Of a stretch of 64,000 nt of DNA, positions 43,438 to 49,319 are shown piece after piece; position 1 is the first letter of the stretch, and each line of letters starts with the position of its first letter. Both the position numbers and the translations under genes were made by a program. The stretch is from Methanomassiliicoccus luminyensis B10. GTDB lineage: Archaea; Thermoplasmatota; Thermoplasmata; Methanomassiliicoccales; Methanomassiliicoccaceae. The notes beneath the pieces were generated by a model, which made no database searches, was not told the origin of the DNA, and worked only from the letters and a program-made list of their open reading frames with translations. The stretch spans positions 1 to 64,000 of the forward strand of contig NZ_CAJE01000015.1 in the NCBI RefSeq assembly GCF_000308215.1, in the 5' to 3' direction.

Positions 43438-44505
43438 ATGGCCGACGTGAGCGCTACCGCGTGGATCATTTTCCTTGTGAGCATCTTCGTACTTCTGGCC
43501 ATGGACCTGGGAGTCTTCAACCGCAAGGCTCACGTGATCAAGCCCAAGGAAGCCTTGATGCAGGTGGCATTCTTCATCTCCGCCGCGGTGGTGTTCAACC
43601 TCGGCATATACTGGTTCATGGGCCCCCAGACCGGCCTGGAGTTCACCACCGGCTATATCATGGAGCTCATGCTGAGCGTCGATAACCTGTTCGTGTTCGT
43701 CCTGGTGTTCGCATCGTTCTGCGTACCGGAGAAGGACCAGCACAAGGTGCTGTTCTTCGGAGTGCTGGGAGCGCTGGTGTTCCGGTTCGCGTTCATCCTC
43801 GCCGGCGTCACCCTGGTGGAAGCGTTCGACTGGGTGCTGTACATCTTCGGGGCCTTCCTGATCTTCACCGGCATAAGGATGGTGGTCAAGAAGGAGGAGA
43901 AGGTTTCCCATCCCGACCAGAACGTGATGGTCCGGCTCTTCCGGAAGTTCATGAACATCACCAGCGGCTACGAGGGCGACAAGTTCTTCGTCCGAAAGCC
44001 GAACTCCGCGGGGAAGATGGTGCTGTGGGGCACGCCGATGTTCATAGCCCTGATCGTGGTGGAGACCACCGACATCGTGTTCGCGGTGGACTCGATACCG
44101 GCCATTCTGGGCATCACCACCAATGCGTTCATCGTGTTCAGCTCCAATGCGTTCGCCATCCTCGGCCTGAGGTCGATGTACTTCGCTCTCGCGCACATCA
44201 TGAACCTGTTCTGCTATCTCAAGTACGGCCTCGCGGGGATCCTTTCCTTCGTGGGCATAAAGATGCTTATCGCCGACATCTACCACGTTCCGGTGGAGAT
44301 CTCGCTGCTCATCATCGTCCTGATACTAGGCGTGGCGATCATCGCGTCCTGGCTGAAGACCAGGAAGACCGGCACCTGCCCGGTGGTGGAAGACGCGGCG
44401 GCCGGCGGCTCCTGCCCCGCCCTGCGCGAGCTGGAGGGCGATGAGGAGAAGGAGGGCGAAACCTGCCCGGCGCTCCAGGAGCTTGAGGAAACGGAGAAGA
44501 AATAA
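43438..44505 (+). CDS. TerC-family integral membrane protein
   Basis: About 355 residues with seven to nine helices. The paired acidic motifs ELMLSVDNLFVF and ETTDIVFAVDSIPA are characteristic of TerC/Alx proteins, associated with manganese export or metal handling. An unusual cytosolic C-terminal tail repeats CPALRELE and CPALQELEE, together with TCPVV, so three Cys-Pro motifs might bind metal. ATG 43438 gives the family N-terminus. Followed by a strong hairpin. Confidence 0.85.
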   Translation: MADVSATAWIIFLVSIFVLLAMDLGVFNRKAHVIKPKEALMQVAFFISAAVVFNLGIYWFMGPQTGLEFTTGYIMELMLSVDNLFVFVLVFASFCVPEKDQHKVLFFGVLGALVFRFAFILAGVTLVEAFDWVLYIFGAFLIFTGIRMVVKKEEKVSHPDQNVMVRLFRKFMNITSGYEGDKFFVRKPNSAGKMVLWGTPMFIALIVVETTDIVFAVDSIPAILGITTNAFIVFSSNAFAILGLRSMYFALAHIMNLFCYLKYGLAGILSFVGIKMLIADIYHVPVEISLLIIVLILGVAIIASWLKTRKTGTCPVVEDAAAGGSCPALRELEGDEEKEGETCPALQELEETEKK

Positions 44506-44516
44506 GCGAGGACGTT

Positions 44517-44539
44517 CCCGGCCCTTTTTACGGGCCGGG
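44517..44539. terminator. Hairpin with T-rich loop between convergent genes
   Basis: CCCGGCCC and GGGCCGGG form a perfect 8-bp stem around TTTTTAC, between the stops of terC (44505) and the GAPDH gene (44582). A second smaller dyad GGCGC/GCGCC follows. Probably separates the two convergent transcripts. Confidence 0.5.
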
Positions 44540-44581
44540 CACGGCGCCTGCGCCGCTGTGATGAGAGAAGAGCGAAGAAGT

Positions 44582-45598
44582 TTATTTGCCGATGCCCATG
44601 GTCTTGTCCGTGGTGCGAATGGACGTCATGGCGTCCGGTTCGAGCTTCATCATGGACCGGATGCAGTCGATGCTCTCCGGCACCACGTCGCTCTCCTGGT
44701 GCACCGCCTGGTAGTAGAACAGGGTGTTGCCCTTGACCTTCACGCCGTCCTGCCATACCACGATTTCGTTGAAGTCGCCGCGGGAGCGGCCCAGGTCCTT
44801 GGCGAACTCCATGACCTGGGCGGTGCTCTTGATGCCATGCTTGCCGCTGACGAACTTGACGCGGGGGACGTTGTCCCACACCGCCAGGATATCCTGGTCC
44901 TTGGCCGGCTTCTTGAGGTCGGCGACGATGCAATGCAAGTGCATCAAGGTGGTAGGTGCCTTCACGGCCATGGTGGTGATGTTGAGCCACGGCATGATGG
45001 TCTGAACATCGGGACCGTGGTGGGTGGGGAGCTTCAGCGCGGGTTCCAGAGCGTTAAGCGCGGAGCCCTTGTTGTCCGAGGGATCGGCGCCCCTCCTCAC
45101 GATGGTGGCGGCGACCTTCTCCAGGCCGAAGGCCTTGTCCAGAGGGAATAAGGTCCGCACGAGTCCGGTGGTGTTGCAGGAGACGACGCGGACGAACTGC
45201 GCGCCCCAAGCCTCGCTGTAGTTGGCGTAAGCGTTAAACGATATGCCCGCCAGTCCGTGGTCCTCTCCACCCTGGAAGACGGCCTTGACCCCGGCCTTCT
45301 CGTACTTGGCCTTGTAGTCCCCTCCCACCCCGCCGGGGGTGGCGTCCACGATAATGTCCACCTTGCCCAGCAGGTCCTCGATGGTCCCTTCCACCTTGAT
45401 GCCTTCCTTCTCGAAGGCGGCGGTCTGCTCCGCGCTCGCGGTGTAGAGAGGGAAGCCTTCCGCGCCTGCCAAGCGGGCCTCGTAAGACGGCCTCGTCTTG
45501 GTGACCCCAATGATCTCCATATCATCCTGCGCCTTCACCGCGCACGCGACCCTTTTGCCGATGGTCCCATAACCGTTGACGCCGACTCTGACTTTCAT
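44582..45598 (-). CDS. gap: Glyceraldehyde-3-phosphate dehydrogenase, archaeal type II
   Basis: About 338 residues. VGVNGYGTIGKRV binds NAD(P), and VSCNTTGLVRT holds the catalytic Cys; the overall sequence is of the archaeal phosphorylating class. Works with the nearby Pgk in gluconeogenesis. AT-rich sequence 45617-45645 contains TATA-like elements. Confidence 0.93.
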   Translation of the reverse strand: MKVRVGVNGYGTIGKRVACAVKAQDDMEIIGVTKTRPSYEARLAGAEGFPLYTASAEQTAAFEKEGIKVEGTIEDLLGKVDIIVDATPGGVGGDYKAKYEKAGVKAVFQGGEDHGLAGISFNAYANYSEAWGAQFVRVVSCNTTGLVRTLFPLDKAFGLEKVAATIVRRGADPSDNKGSALNALEPALKLPTHHGPDVQTIMPWLNITTMAVKAPTTLMHLHCIVADLKKPAKDQDILAVWDNVPRVKFVSGKHGIKSTAQVMEFAKDLGRSRGDFNEIVVWQDGVKVKGNTLFYYQAVHQESDVVPESIDCIRSMMKLEPDAMTSIRTTDKTMGIGK

Positions 45599-45659
45599 TC
45601 TGAACTCTCCTCCGTTCTGTCAAATATAACTGGAATATTTTAATATGTATCCCCGAAAA

Positions 45660-45681
45660 CCCACCTTTGACCAAAGGTGGG
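45660..45681. repeat. Perfect palindrome, possible IS605 left-end hairpin
   Basis: CCCACCTTTG and CAAAGGTGGG are separated by AC. Hairpins just inside the ends are the recognition structures of IS200/IS605 elements. It lies about 130 nt before the TnpB-like remnant and about 60 nt from the GAPDH start. Confidence 0.4.
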
Positions 45682-45789
45682 ATTGCATGTAGCCAGAAAT
45701 ACCAATTGTATCGTCGCTGATCTCTCACCAGATGTTCCTCACAATCTCGATACGCTTGTAGCGCACTCAACCAGGCGTGCCGGCGTATC

Positions 45790-45996
45790 TTGGATCGAGG
45801 TCAGGAGAACAGGGACCATGCTAAGTATATGGACGCCGACTTGAACGCCTCAAGGAACATCGCCGCCTTCTCTACGCGGGAAGGCGGCAGGCTCCGCGTC
45901 AGCGAGCCGAACGCAGCGAATGATGAGGCCGAAGGTCATTGGACAATCGAGGCTGATCTCAGCTGCATGCTCACGAGTTTAATAGTGGGCGGCTGA
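45790..45996 (+). pseudogene. TnpB (IS200/IS605) C-terminal remnant
   Basis: The 68-residue frame contains YMDADLNASRNIA, matching the last RuvC motif of TnpB/IS605 OrfB (D-x-N-A-A-N-I with preceding acidic residues). Intact TnpB has about 380-420 residues and a CxxC zinc finger directly before this motif; here it is missing. Only the C-terminal end survives. The 3' end and the following hairpin correspond to where the guide RNA of TnpB systems would be encoded. Most likely inactive. Confidence 0.6.
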
Positions 45997-45997
45997 C

Positions 45998-46026
45998 GAC
46001 CCTTGTGGTATGCTACCCGCAGGGTC
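45998..46026 (+). repeat. Imperfect hairpin after the TnpB relic
   Basis: GACCCT (45998-46003) pairs with AGGGTC (46021-46026), with a further imperfect GTGGT/ACCCGC stem inside. Its position just after the relic stop is that of the right end and guide-RNA scaffold in IS605 elements. Confidence 0.35.
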
Positions 46027-46132
46027 ACGAGAGCAGATGGCCCAGGGATTAGTCGTTGTCGGAAGAGGCCGATAGGCGTGCTTTTTTCAAGCCAGTACAC
46101 GAATTTTCGACACTGCCAGCCCATAGCATGAG

Positions 46133-46142
46133 TATTTATACC
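46133..46142 (+). promoter_or_regulatory. TATA box of the ilv operon
   Basis: TATTTATACC is centred near 46137. Start of transcription is expected at about 46162-46166, only 5-9 nt before the leader-peptide ATG at 46171 and about 120 nt before ilvB. Confidence 0.5.
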
Positions 46143-46170
46143 ATTGCCTTTATTTGGGTTAGCGATATCG

Positions 46171-46236
46171 ATGACCACCACTAACCGCGCCACCGTTTCT
46201 TTGCTTCTGGGCGTAGTGGTAGTCTTGATTAGGTAG
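46171..46236 (+). CDS. Putative ilv leader peptide (attenuator uORF)
   Basis: A 21-codon frame, ATG to TAG, lies between the TATA box and ilvB. The second half reads LLLGVVVVLIR: three Leu, four consecutive Val (GTA GTG GTA GTC), then Leu and Ile. These are exactly the products of the downstream pathway, as in the bacterial ilvB and ilvGMEDA leader peptides. The predicted transcription start is 5-9 nt upstream, so translation would begin almost at the mRNA end. Codon composition alone can occur by chance in hydrophobic peptides, but position, length and operon match make a regulatory leader likely. Ribosome stalling at scarce Val-/Leu-tRNA could alter folding of the following RNA or expose the ilvB ribosome-binding site. 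Confidence 0.6.
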   Translation: MTTTNRATVSLLLGVVVVLIR

Positions 46237-46237
46237 A

Positions 46238-46261
46238 GGCATCCAGCAGATTTGGGTGTCC
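46238..46261 (+). promoter_or_regulatory. Hairpin between leader peptide and ilvB
   Basis: GGCATCC (46238-46244) can pair with GGGTGTCC (46254-46261), allowing one bulged T and one G-T pair, around a 9-nt loop. There is no T-tract after it, so it would act on translation or elongation rather than as a classical terminator. The leader also has the competing pair ACCACTA (46177-46183) with TAGTGGT (46214-46220), the latter inside the Val codon run. Confidence 0.4.
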
Positions 46262-46287
46262 TCGCTCATTGATAAAAAGGTGATTTG

Positions 46288-47958
46288 TTGAGAGGTTCAA
46301 AGGCCGTTCTCACACTGTTAGAGCAAGAAGGGGTCGAGGTCATGTTCGGGTACCCCGGGGGCTCCACCCTCCCGCTGTATGACGATATGCTCTCGTCCAA
46401 CATACGCCATGTGCTGGTCCGCCATGAGCAGTGCGCCGCCCACATGGCCGACGGGTACGCAAGAGCGAGCGGAAAGATCGGGGTGTGCGACTCCACCTCC
46501 GGTCCCGGCTCCACCAATCTGGTGACCGGCGTCGCCACCGCTTATGTCGACTCGTCCCCCATGCTCGTTCTGACCGGCCAGGTCACCACCTCCGCCCTGG
46601 GCAACCAGGCGTTCCAGGAGGCCGACTCATTCTCCCTGATGATGCCCATCACCAAGCACAACTTCCGCGTCCTCAGCCCCCGGGACATCCCCGAGGCGGT
46701 CAAGAGAGGAGTGGCCATCGCCACCAGCGGAAGGATGGGGCCAGTGCACATCGACCTGCCGTCGGACGTGCAGAAGGCGGAGGTACCAGAGGACGCCTAC
46801 AAGGCCGACTTCTCCGCCCCGCCCGCCCTGGAGGACTTCTCGGCCCTCTCTGACGCCATCAAGATACTCAAGAGCGCGGAGCGGCCGATGCTGCTGGTCG
46901 GCGGCGGGGCCATATGGTCCAACGCCGGGCCGGAAGTGATGAAGCTCGCCGAGATGCTGATGGCGCCGGTCGCCACCACCATCATGGCCAAGGGGATCAT
47001 CCCCGAGGACCATCCGCTGTGCCTCGGCATCATCGGGATGCATGGCAGGGAATCAGCGCGCAAGGCGTTCCTGGAGGCCGACACCATTCTGGCGGTCGGG
47101 ACCAGGTTCTCCGACCGCAGCGCCGGGAACCAATCGGAGCTGCCGCTATCCACCAAGATCATCCATATCGACATAGACCCCGGCGAGGCCGGCAAGTCCG
47201 CCCGCACCCAGGTGCGCCTGGTGGGGGACGCCAAGAGGGCCCTCGCCGCCATCATAGACAGCCTAGCCGCCCAGAGGGGCGAGAGCGCCTGGACCGAGAG
47301 GGTGGCCGAGATGGTGGCCAACTGCTCCTGCGAGATCGACCTCACCTCGTCGCCGGTCCTGCCGCAGAGCGCCATCTGCGAGATCAATCGCACCCTGCCG
47401 CACGACGCCATCGTGCTCACTGAGGTCGGTCAGAATCAGATGTGGGCGGCGCACTTCTTCAAGGCCAAGTATCCGAGGCAGTTCATCACCTCGGGCGGCT
47501 TCGGCACCATGGGCTTCGGGTTCCCCGCGTCCCTGGGCGCCAAGTGCGCGTTCCCCGAGAAGACCGTCGTTGATATCGCCGGCGACGGCAGCATCCAGAT
47601 GGTCGCCCATGAGTTCGCCACTGCGGTGTCGGAGAACCTCCCGGTGGTGGTCTGCGTGTTCAACAACGGCTGGCTGGGCATGGTCAAACAGTGGCAGAAG
47701 CTGTTCAACAATGCCCGCTACAGCGGGACGCAGCTCAACAACAACCCCGACTTTGTCAAGCTAGCGCAGGCGTACGGCGCGGACGGGGTCCACGTCGAGC
47801 GCTCGTCCGAGCTGAAAGAGGCGCTGACCAATGCGTACAAAGCAGGAGTCCCGTACCTGGTCGACATTCATCTTGAAGCGGAGGAGGACGCCCTCCCCAT
47901 GATCCCCGCGGGCGGGGGCGCCCACGATGTCATAAGAGGTAGGTGCACATGGAAGTGA
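46288..47958 (+). CDS. ilvB: Acetolactate synthase, large (catalytic) subunit
   Basis: About 556 residues of the thiamine diphosphate enzymes. VEVMFGYPGGSTLPLYD (catalytic Glu region) starts the protein, and GDGSIQMVAHEFATAVSENLPVVVCVFNN is the ThDP/Mg motif. Makes acetolactate or acetohydroxybutyrate for Val, Leu, Ile. No ATG is available; TTG 46288 (or 46285) follows a perfect AAGGTGAT Shine-Dalgarno at 46277-46284. The spacing is short. Preceded by the putative leader peptide; first structural gene of ilvBNC. Confidence 0.93.
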   Translation: MRGSKAVLTLLEQEGVEVMFGYPGGSTLPLYDDMLSSNIRHVLVRHEQCAAHMADGYARASGKIGVCDSTSGPGSTNLVTGVATAYVDSSPMLVLTGQVTTSALGNQAFQEADSFSLMMPITKHNFRVLSPRDIPEAVKRGVAIATSGRMGPVHIDLPSDVQKAEVPEDAYKADFSAPPALEDFSALSDAIKILKSAERPMLLVGGGAIWSNAGPEVMKLAEMLMAPVATTIMAKGIIPEDHPLCLGIIGMHGRESARKAFLEADTILAVGTRFSDRSAGNQSELPLSTKIIHIDIDPGEAGKSARTQVRLVGDAKRALAAIIDSLAAQRGESAWTERVAEMVANCSCEIDLTSSPVLPQSAICEINRTLPHDAIVLTEVGQNQMWAAHFFKAKYPRQFITSGGFGTMGFGFPASLGAKCAFPEKTVVDIAGDGSIQMVAHEFATAVSENLPVVVCVFNNGWLGMVKQWQKLFNNARYSGTQLNNNPDFVKLAQAYGADGVHVERSSELKEALTNAYKAGVPYLVDIHLEAEEDALPMIPAGGGAHDVIRGRCTWK

Positions 47959-48314
47959 TAAAGATCGTCGGCAACGACTCCCAAGGGCTCATCCAAAGGG
48001 TCCTCGTGGAGCTGGGAAGGAGAAAGATCAGGGTCGAGAAGACCTTCATGGCAAGGACCAAGGGCACCATCACCATCATCATCGAGGCGGACACCGGCTC
48101 CATGAACGGACGGCTGCTCCACGCCATGATGGCGCTGCAGGACGTGAACACCGCGGAGTACATCGAGGACGATTACTTCTGCTTCTGGGAGTCGTCACCC
48201 ACCAAGGGCTCCGACTTCATCATCGCGTGCGGCGGGGACAAGAGCGCTGGCGAGATGCAGAAGGCGGCCGAACATTGTTTATACAAAAGTCCTGATAAGG
48301 ACGGCAAGAACTGA
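47949..48314 (+). CDS. ilvN: Acetolactate synthase, small (regulatory) subunit
   Basis: About 121 residues. An N-terminal ACT domain (VIKIVGNDSQGLIQRVLVELG; residues 1-75) that would bind valine and control the large subunit is followed by a short, unusual C-terminal tail with FIIACGGDKSAGEMQKAAEHC rather than the full second domain of IlvN/IlvH (~160 residues). Starts at ATG 47949, overlapping the ilvB end by 10 nt. Confidence 0.78.
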   Translation: MEVIKIVGNDSQGLIQRVLVELGRRKIRVEKTFMARTKGTITIIIEADTGSMNGRLLHAMMALQDVNTAEYIEDDYFCFWESSPTKGSDFIIACGGDKSAGEMQKAAEHCLYKSPDKDGKN

Positions 48315-48329
48315 GAGCCGGTGTTTAGC

Positions 48330-49319
48330 ATGGCTACCAAGATCTATCATGATTCCGACGCTGACCTGAACATATTGAAGGGAAAGAAGATCGCAGTCAT
48401 CGGCTACGGCAACCAGGGACGCGCGCAGGCGCTGTGCCTGCATGATTCCGGGCTTGATGTCGTTGTCGGCGCCCGCAGGAACGGAGAGTCCTGGGGGCAG
48501 GCCTCCAGCGACGGTCTCAAGGTCGCCGAGATCCCCGCTGCCGTGAAGGGCGCGGACGTCGTAATGGTCCTTTTGCCCGACGAAGTGCAGCCGGGCGTAT
48601 ACAAGCAGCAGATCGCTCCCAACCTCAAGGAGGGCGCGGCCCTGGAGTTCGCCCACGGCTTCGCCATCACCTTCAAGTGCATTGCCCCGCCGGCCAAGAA
48701 CGACGTCATCATGGTCGCTCCGAAGTCGCCGGGACGCATGGTCCGCCAGACCTATCTGGAAGGGTTCGGTGTTCCTTCGCTCATTGCAGTGCAGCAGGAC
48801 GCTACAGGAAAGGCGAAGCAAGTAGCCCTGGCCCTGGCGAAGGGGCTTGGCTCCACCAAGGCCGGCGTTCTGGAGACCGACTTCCGCGAGGAGGCCACCT
48901 CTGACCTGTTCGGCGAGCAGGCCGTCCTGTGCGGCGGTGTGACCGCTCTGATCGAGGCGGGGTTCGAGACCCTTGTCAAGGCCGGTTACAAGCCGGAGAT
49001 CGCGTACTTCGAGGTCCTTCACGAGCTGAAGCTTATCGTCGACCTTATCCAGGCCGGCGGAATGATGCATATGTGGGACTCCGTTTCCAACACCGCCGAG
49101 TTCGGCGGACTGACCAGGAGGGACGCGGTCATCAACGACGAGTCCAAGAAGGCCATGAAGAAGATCCTCGAGGACATCAACTCCGGGAAGTTCGCCAAGG
49201 AGTGGTCTGAGGAGTGGAAGGTCGACCTGAAGAACATGAAGCGGCTCGAGAAAGAGGAGTCGGAGAAGCAGGTCGAGGCGGTCGGCAAGGATATCCGCGC
49301 GCTCTTCGAGAGGAAGTAA
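48330..49319 (+). CDS. ilvC: Ketol-acid reductoisomerase, class I
   Basis: About 329 residues. Rossmann motif GYGNQGRAQALCLHDSG, then MVAPKSPGRMVRQTYLEGFGVPSLIAV, and the knotted C-terminal domain with LFGEQAVLCGG and MWDSVSNTAEFGGLTRRD. Converts acetolactate to the dihydroxyacid with NAD(P)H and Mg. The dihydroxyacid dehydratase gene is not in the window. Confidence 0.94.
   Translation: MATKIYHDSDADLNILKGKKIAVIGYGNQGRAQALCLHDSGLDVVVGARRNGESWGQASSDGLKVAEIPAAVKGADVVMVLLPDEVQPGVYKQQIAPNLKEGAALEFAHGFAITFKCIAPPAKNDVIMVAPKSPGRMVRQTYLEGFGVPSLIAVQQDATGKAKQVALALAKGLGSTKAGVLETDFREEATSDLFGEQAVLCGGVTALIEAGFETLVKAGYKPEIAYFEVLHELKLIVDLIQAGGMMHMWDSVSNTAEFGGLTRRDAVINDESKKAMKKILEDINSGKFAKEWSEEWKVDLKNMKRLEKEESEKQVEAVGKDIRALFERK

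Follow-up and report, generated by a model that had tools for sequence, protein, structure and literature searches.

A putative leader-peptide attenuator upstream of ilvB in Methanomassiliicoccus luminyensis B10 and other Thermoplasmata

Introduction

Leader-peptide attenuation is a textbook bacterial mechanism. In Escherichia coli, the leader peptides ilvL and ivbL, encoded 5' of genes for acetolactate synthase, contain consecutive Val/Leu/Ile codons. The archaeal element described here has such a codon run too, whereas the E. coli leaders are bacterial, are not leaderless and act by terminator-based transcription attenuation. T-box elements work without a leader frame, by direct binding of tRNA. 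Their likeness to the present element, as far as the accessible text of PMC2494555 goes, is that they sense tRNA charging for amino acid genes.

The ilvBNC attenuator of Corynebacterium glutamicum, as described in the available part of PMC11857589, shares with the B10 element a Val/Leu/Ile leader peptide (MTIIRLVVVTARRLP in C. glutamicum), leaderless initiation (predicted for B10), the same operon and a hairpin over the leader start. According to the same excerpts (PMC11857589), this bacterial system has three hairpins, with an antiterminator and a terminator, whereas B10 has two hairpins and neither a terminator nor a competing helix was found there. In ermC translational attenuation, a ribosome stalled on the leader reshapes the hairpin governing a downstream Shine-Dalgarno, an action of the kind proposed here for B10; ermC is bacterial and responds to erythromycin, not to amino acid supply (PMC10219788, accessible part). 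Of these known systems, the C. glutamicum attenuator is nearest in anatomy and ermC in proposed action.

The accessible part of PMC10219788 makes the general statement that attenuation by uORFs extends to archaea and gives no archaeal example. For Methanosarcina mazei, a Ribo-seq study reports small frames within 5' UTRs that annotation had missed; its available text lacks the strings 'attenuat' and 'ilv' (PMC11456600). The authors of a 2010 survey, in the part of it available, knew of no case shown outside Proteobacteria and Actinobacteria, ermC apart, before their own from Firmicutes (PMC2965389). No archaeal leader-peptide attenuator is described in the literature that we searched, most subscription papers being beyond reach and some sources available only in part. 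Here we describe an element before the ilvB operon of M. luminyensis B10 that, judged from its sequence and that of its relatives, is quite likely a ribosome-mediated attenuator that senses branched-chain amino acid supply in Archaea.

Layout of the ilvB locus

The locus lies in the first 64,000 nt of contig NZ_CAJE01000015.1 (the window), from a B10 assembly of 2,620,233 bases in 26 contigs. The relevant features, in window coordinates, are:

46135-46141, + strand: TATA-like promoter element TTTATAC (from sequence and from box-to-start spacing in relatives)
46171-46236, + strand: leader peptide frame, MTTTNRATVSLLLGVVVVLIR, 21 codons from ATG to TAG, kept 5' of ilvB in relatives
46177-46183, + strand: core of the 5' arm of hairpin H1, ACCACTA, in codons 3-5 (from folding)
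46213-46230, + strand: branched-chain codon run Val4-Leu-Ile (codon and frame statistics), its final codon beginning 8 nt before H2
46214-46220, + strand: core of the 3' arm of H1, TAGTGGT, within the Val codons (folding and pairing tests)
46236-46263, + strand: hairpin H2, GAGGCATCCAG ... TTGGGTGTCCTC, with a bulged U, starting in the leader stop codon (folding, covariation)
46278-46284, + strand: ilvB Shine-Dalgarno AGGTGAT (from sequence), 14 nt 3' of H2
46285-47958, + strand: ilvB, acetolactate synthase large subunit, TTG start at 46285 or 46288 (Pfam TPP_enzyme N/M/C and TIGR00118 above cut-off)
47943-48314, + strand: 123-aa frame in the place of ilvN, a divergent ACT-like candidate without a Pfam family
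48321-49319, + strand: ilvC, ketol-acid reductoisomerase (Pfam KARI_N/KARI_C, TIGR00465)

The preliminary description of this DNA had reported a 21-codon ATG-to-TAG frame with a Val/Leu/Ile-rich end between a TATA box and ilvB, and this frame is present at 46171-46236, with 48 nt between its stop codon and the ilvB TTG start in the B10 sequence. AGGTGAT was also matched to the expected sequence of the 16S tail. The TATA-like box ends about 29 nt before the leader start, which makes B10 one of 7 exceptions to the 22-24 nt found in 33 of the 40 leaders with readable sequence. At this spacing the B10 transcript could plausibly begin a few nt 5' of the ATG, and its leader frame would then be leaderless or nearly leaderless.

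By its domain matches, the B10 IlvB is a biosynthetic acetolactate synthase. The 123-aa frame between ilvB and ilvC has a weak ACT-domain match (E 0.053, below cut-off) and is a candidate for a divergent regulatory subunit. An Rfam scan of 44000-47000 returned no family at the gathering score; one sub-threshold match fell inside ilvB and none in the leader.

Conservation of the leader within Methanomassiliicoccales

We sought ilvB in 61 genomes of the source organism's order. At a cut-off of E 1e-80, 55 of them gave matches, which amounted to 89 rows, and we read 68 of the 89 upstream regions (28 loci and 40 stretches). These 68 comprise 41 tabulated leaders, 23 regions from family f2, and G054b, G027b, G001b and G012, the last without upstream sequence. 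Outside this first reading were L023 (masked), L032 (11 nt upstream), seven partial matches and 12 rows at about 29-35% identity; family f5 (G018, a partial match) is outside all counts.

The preliminary description had proposed that, in related genomes, a genuine leader would retain its Val/Leu/Ile codons amid drifting flanks. The comparison gives this pattern: in 41 leader frames tabulated 5' of ilvB, from four families (f1, f3, f4 and f6), the N-terminal halves drift widely and the terminal Val/Ile/Leu run is kept. Endings directly before the stop codon include VVVVLIR, AVVIIIS, VIVVLG, TVVVVL, GVVVVI and SVQVLVV. The frames start with ATG or GTG and stop with TAG (24), TGA (16) or TAA (1). 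The five f6 first copies have a box-to-ATG spacing of 29-32 nt and an in-frame GTG 9 nt (four) or 6 nt (one) 5' of the ATG, so the true start of these leaders may be the upstream GTG. The f3 and f4 leaders have their GTG start inside a small conserved hairpin, CCGUG...CACGG, visible in the alignment, that could keep the leader start closed; as its pairs show almost no variation, they are little informative.

Some f6, f4 and f3 genomes contain second ilvB copies with leaders of their own (L122, L123, L130, L136, L143 and L115). The base of the following hairpin in these second copies is GGGG or GGGT in f6 and f4 (for example after the leader MNAALIFVNSSLLVSVQVLVV) and GAGG in f3 (L115).

Nearly all f2 regions were read as lacking the element, with a probable leader by eye in 1 of 23 (G047b, ending in SVVVM before the stop). 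G054b has a probable leader whose start is not clear-cut, and no leader was found in the upstream regions of G027b and of G001b, a 44% identical paralogue. Four additional regions (three of the seven partial matches and one row from the class search below), which enter no statistic, yielded leaders in G025b, G056 and G178 (f8) and none in G057b (f2).

Branched-chain codons are frame-specific and tied to ilvB

Val, Ile and Leu make up 232 of the 328 final codons (71%) when the last eight codons of the 41 leaders are read in frame, compared with 26/328 (8%) and 66/328 (20%) when the reading is shifted to either of the alternative frames. With the final V/I/L codon as reference (V/I/L by definition), the first, second and third codons before it encode V/I/L in 41, 40 and 38 of 41 leaders, and the codons used vary.

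We further applied a strict criterion: a frame of 15-40 aa within 200 nt upstream, with at least 8 V/I/L among the final 12 residues. It was satisfied by 31 of 45 ilvB regions, which consist of 40 tabulated leaders, G027b, G054b, G001b and the two copies of G047, an f2 genome; the tabulated leaders that fall short have fewer V/I/L in the final 12 residues. Dinucleotide shuffles (60 sets) gave a mean of 0.12 per set of 45 and a maximum of 2, and arbitrary 200-nt windows gave 3 of 2476. None of 20 f2 regions and none of 59 control genes qualified (leuA-like 0/22, ilvD 0/14, trpE 0/8, hisG 0/15).

A scan of relatives for leaders cognate to other pathways, covering 23 of 30 leuA-like loci, 14 of 15 ilvD, 10 of 10 trpE-like and 15 of 15 hisG, found no conserved cognate leader at the loci scanned. 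Lone scattered frames did occur, such as MYCDLGRGPLLLLREL (then stop) in L158, and several had two Trp or four His.

Two hairpins and their register with the codon run

The minimum-energy fold of the B10 leader region contains H1 and H2 together. The preliminary description had reported competing hairpins near the Val codons; both hairpins exist, but they do not compete, since one minimum-energy fold holds both. The whole fold is weakly better than shuffles in B10 (z -1.52, with 20 of 200 shuffles as good), and the case for the hairpins is therefore comparative.

A hairpin at or just past the stop codon was found in all 41 folds, with a mean z of -2.81 (range -5.92 to -0.70; B10 -2.70). RNAalifold on our first alignments recovered ten H2 pairs in A1, four start-codon pairs in A2 and none in A3. 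Because MAFFT had set families out of register after the stop in A2 and A3, we used an H2-only alignment of 35 first copies. The base of H2 is nearly constant in first copies (GAGG:CCUC). Upper-stem covariation in the 35 was 0.384 against 0.224 in shuffled sequences, and paired cells amounted to 88.4% against 77.1%; neither value was reached by any of 500 shuffles. Two of the six pairs change on both sides, a count reached by 472 of 500 shuffles and so without excess over them, and the 35 sequences are related to one another.

For H1, pairing between the early codons and the run had a mean z of -1.92 (s.e.m. 0.21) over 41 leaders. By group, z was -2.51 in f1 (13) and -2.69 in f8 (15), and among first copies it was -1.77 in f6 (5) and -1.14 in f3 (16); H1 was unsupported by this test in f6 second copies (+0.46, 4 leaders) and in two Archaeoglobaceae (-0.58 and +1.09). 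When all pairs of six segments were tested across the 41 leaders, H1 (-1.92) and H2 (-2.46) stood out, the next values being -0.53 and -0.46, and no third, competing helix appeared among them. A short CATTG-like motif lies 3' of H2 in many relatives (46264-46272 in B10) and found no partner in this segment test.

In 36 of 41 leaders, 8 nt separate the last V/I/L codon from the base motif of H2; the separation is 9 nt in four and 10 nt in one (sd 0.42; this measure was chosen after the sequences had been inspected). The distance from the stop codon to H2 is 1, 2, 5 or 6 nt in the same 41 leaders (sd 1.63). The run-to-H2 spacing is thus nearly fixed while the stop moves, which indicates that H2 is registered to the codon run and not to the stop. 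With a ribosome footprint that extends to about +12 nt, placing the last V/I/L codon in the A site should bring the leading edge of the ribosome onto the first 3-4 nt of H2. A ribosome stalled on the upstream codons of the run would not reach it.

Distribution beyond the order

In the wider class Thermoplasmata, 56 of 200 genomes gave a match at E 1e-150 or better, and 32 upstream regions were read. Family f8 has leaders in 15 of 16 regions by the criterion and in the sixteenth (L231) by eye only; leaders were also found in f24 (2/2), f22 (1/1) and f18 (1/1). In f13, 2 of 7 regions satisfied the criterion and 6 of 7 have a frame by eye, L254 having none. No leader was found in this set in f27 (0/2) or f2 (0/3), where an 11-residue frame in G218b was not counted. 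Peptide sequences differ among Thermoplasmata families and V/I/L richness stays.

The mean z of the post-stop hairpin is -2.40 in f8 (15), -3.00 in f24 (2), -2.48 in six f13 loci and +0.07 in f22 (1). At four f13 loci (L249, L251, L253 and L255) this hairpin (z -2.49 to -4.11) extends into the GGGAG before ilvB, and in L251, L253 and L255 it also takes in part of the codons 5' of the stop. The predicted stem in L248 and L250 also touches a GAGGG and is not significant (z -0.66 and +0.12).

A phylum search, with matches at 1e-140 in 22 of 194 genomes, added one further genome, whose upstream region has no leader by eye. In a named collection of 80 loci, a loose criterion found frames in the Archaeoglobaceae L055 and L069, in Thermoplasmata/Euryarchaeota MAGs L035 and L036 and in the DHVE2 archaeon L066, with weak TTG matches in L093, L098 and the bacterial L106. 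The strict criterion retained 2 of 28 archaeal loci (L055 and L066) and 0 of 51 bacterial ones, one locus being too short. L035, L036 and L066 are not independent cases, since the class set contains the identical frames, in L235, L243 and L256. In Archaeoglobus L055, a hairpin and six Ts follow the leader stop, an intrinsic-terminator-like arrangement directly 5' of the ilvB Shine-Dalgarno.

How the element could act

By the comparisons above, conservation extends to the frame, its branched-chain composition, both hairpins and the run-to-H2 register, and all of these go with ilvB. From these features we infer that the leader frame is translated and that a ribosome dwelling on the run would change ilvB output. 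In the mechanism that we propose, the leaderless or nearly leaderless short frame would be translated first. Its last third, the Val/Ile/Leu run, is predicted to pair with its own early codons (H1) and ends 8 nt before H2, a stable hairpin adjoining the ilvB ribosome-binding region. Under a shortage of Val-, Leu- or Ile-tRNA the ribosome would dwell on the run; with the last run codons in its A site it would open the H2 base (GAGG:CCUC) and so help ribosomes to load at ilvB. With ample charged tRNA the leader ribosome would move off fast, H2 would refold and less ilvB would be translated. Opening of H2 by a ribosome on the last run codons, with a rise in ilvB translation, is the most likely output step, although we place its chances a little under even; sensing as a whole is the better supported claim, by the comparisons.

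Classical attenuator logic would assign the states differently. A ribosome stalled on the run would leave H2 intact (ON), and a ribosome at the stop codon would cover the 5' arm of H2, so that the 3' arm, UCCUC, masks the ilvB Shine-Dalgarno. This would agree with the geometry, given that a ribosome at the stop would cover the 5' arm on the same footprint and that most run codons are too far 5' to touch H2, and with the nearly constant first-copy base, as CCUC is complementary to Shine-Dalgarno sequences. The pairing tests nonetheless make it unlikely: the H2 3' arm against the ilvB start region showed no excess over shuffles (mean duplex z -0.13, fold z +0.25), no third helix emerged from the segment pairs, and f6 second copies have CCCC at the H2 base before GUGAGG-type Shine-Dalgarnos. 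Three-state folding (leader free, ribosome on the run, ribosome at the stop) gave no clear mean change in Shine-Dalgarno accessibility, with values of 0.36/0.41/0.36 in f1, 0.45/0.48/0.41 in f3, 0.38/0.39/0.38 in f6 and 0.25/0.46/0.53 in the two f4 sequences. Shuffling the downstream sequence left the openness of the Shine-Dalgarno region about the same (0.43, against 0.45 unshuffled). An anti-Shine-Dalgarno switch through the H2 3' arm thus found no support in three-state folding, in duplex and fold scores or in all-against-all segment pairing.

Nor does H2 as a whole appear to pair with the Shine-Dalgarno region in the 41 Methanomassiliicoccales leaders; in B10 it stops 14 nt upstream. The preliminary description had also suggested that the ilvB Shine-Dalgarno pairs with CACCGTTTC (46191-46199) inside the leader. 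This pairing can be drawn in B10, yet across the 41 leaders there is no preference for pairing between leader and Shine-Dalgarno region (mean z +0.37). With neither a third helix nor a U-tract nor leader:Shine-Dalgarno pairing found in these tests, the element does not resemble a bacterial terminator-type attenuator. The null results for pairing, accessibility and T runs therefore leave direct ribosome action on H2, or else factor-dependent termination or mRNA stability.

In a transcriptional version, ribosome position would set premature, perhaps factor-dependent (FttA/aCPSF1), termination before ilvB. Archaeal transcription and translation are coupled, and Archaeoglobus L055, with its hairpin and six Ts past the leader stop, has the arrangement that such control might use. 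We consider this version improbable, given that a T run of at least 5 between H2 and ilvB is absent from 40 of 41 leaders and that the sole intrinsic-terminator-like site near the B10 leader (46056-46075) is upstream of it, none lying between leader and ilvB. An intrinsic terminator was accordingly rejected as a candidate: B10 has no U-tract before ilvB, as the preliminary description had noted, and the one T run of 5 among the 41 leaders is the exception. The preference of that description for translational over termination control fits the missing U-tract and the four f13 loci with a hairpin into the Shine-Dalgarno; the translational output itself is a prediction.

A ribosome stalled near the 5' end could, together with H2, shield ilv mRNA from 5'-3' decay. 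H1 and H2 are close to the 5' end of the predicted leaderless transcript and ermC-type stabilisation is known in bacteria, but protection of this kind would leave the fixed 8-nt register unexplained, and we regard it as very unlikely. A last alternative, in which the branched-chain codons are incidental to a structured RNA or to a small membrane peptide with a function of its own, might be suggested by the H1 constraint on the Val codons and by the hydrophobic peptide end. It is highly implausible, because the V/I/L composition is confined to the leader's own frame and persists through codon changes and the drift of the N-terminal half, V/I/L richness stays as sequence differs between families, and the element is tied to ilvB and was not found at control genes.

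Opening of H2 by the leader ribosome remains our preferred reading, and the element would class as a variant of leader-peptide attenuation. The sensing features that sequence can address are present: codons for the product amino acids in a short frame before the biosynthetic operon, control codons kept while the remainder drifts, and RNA structure that a ribosome reading those codons could reach, given the footprint above. Mutually exclusive structures, a further feature of attenuation, are absent in that H1 and H2 share one fold, and the U-tract hairpin before the first structural gene that marks terminator-type attenuation is likewise missing. The evidence is evenly balanced on whether the element represents an ancient archaeal attenuator class, spanning several Thermoplasmata families and Archaeoglobaceae, in which a leaderless frame is followed by two non-competing hairpins and the ribosome would act directly on the hairpin beside the ilvB ribosome-binding site, without a terminator or alternative fold. 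If the element works, ribosome position would report amino acid supply in Archaea as well, through leaderless initiation and with no terminator switch, and the coupling of translation to gene control in Archaea would become testable on one short, well-bounded element.

A separate observation concerns the leader stop codon. These methanogens read TAG as pyrrolysine, and TAG is the stop in 24 of the 41 leaders, including that of B10 (46234-46236), where read-through would take the ribosome through H2 up to a TGA at 46270-46272.
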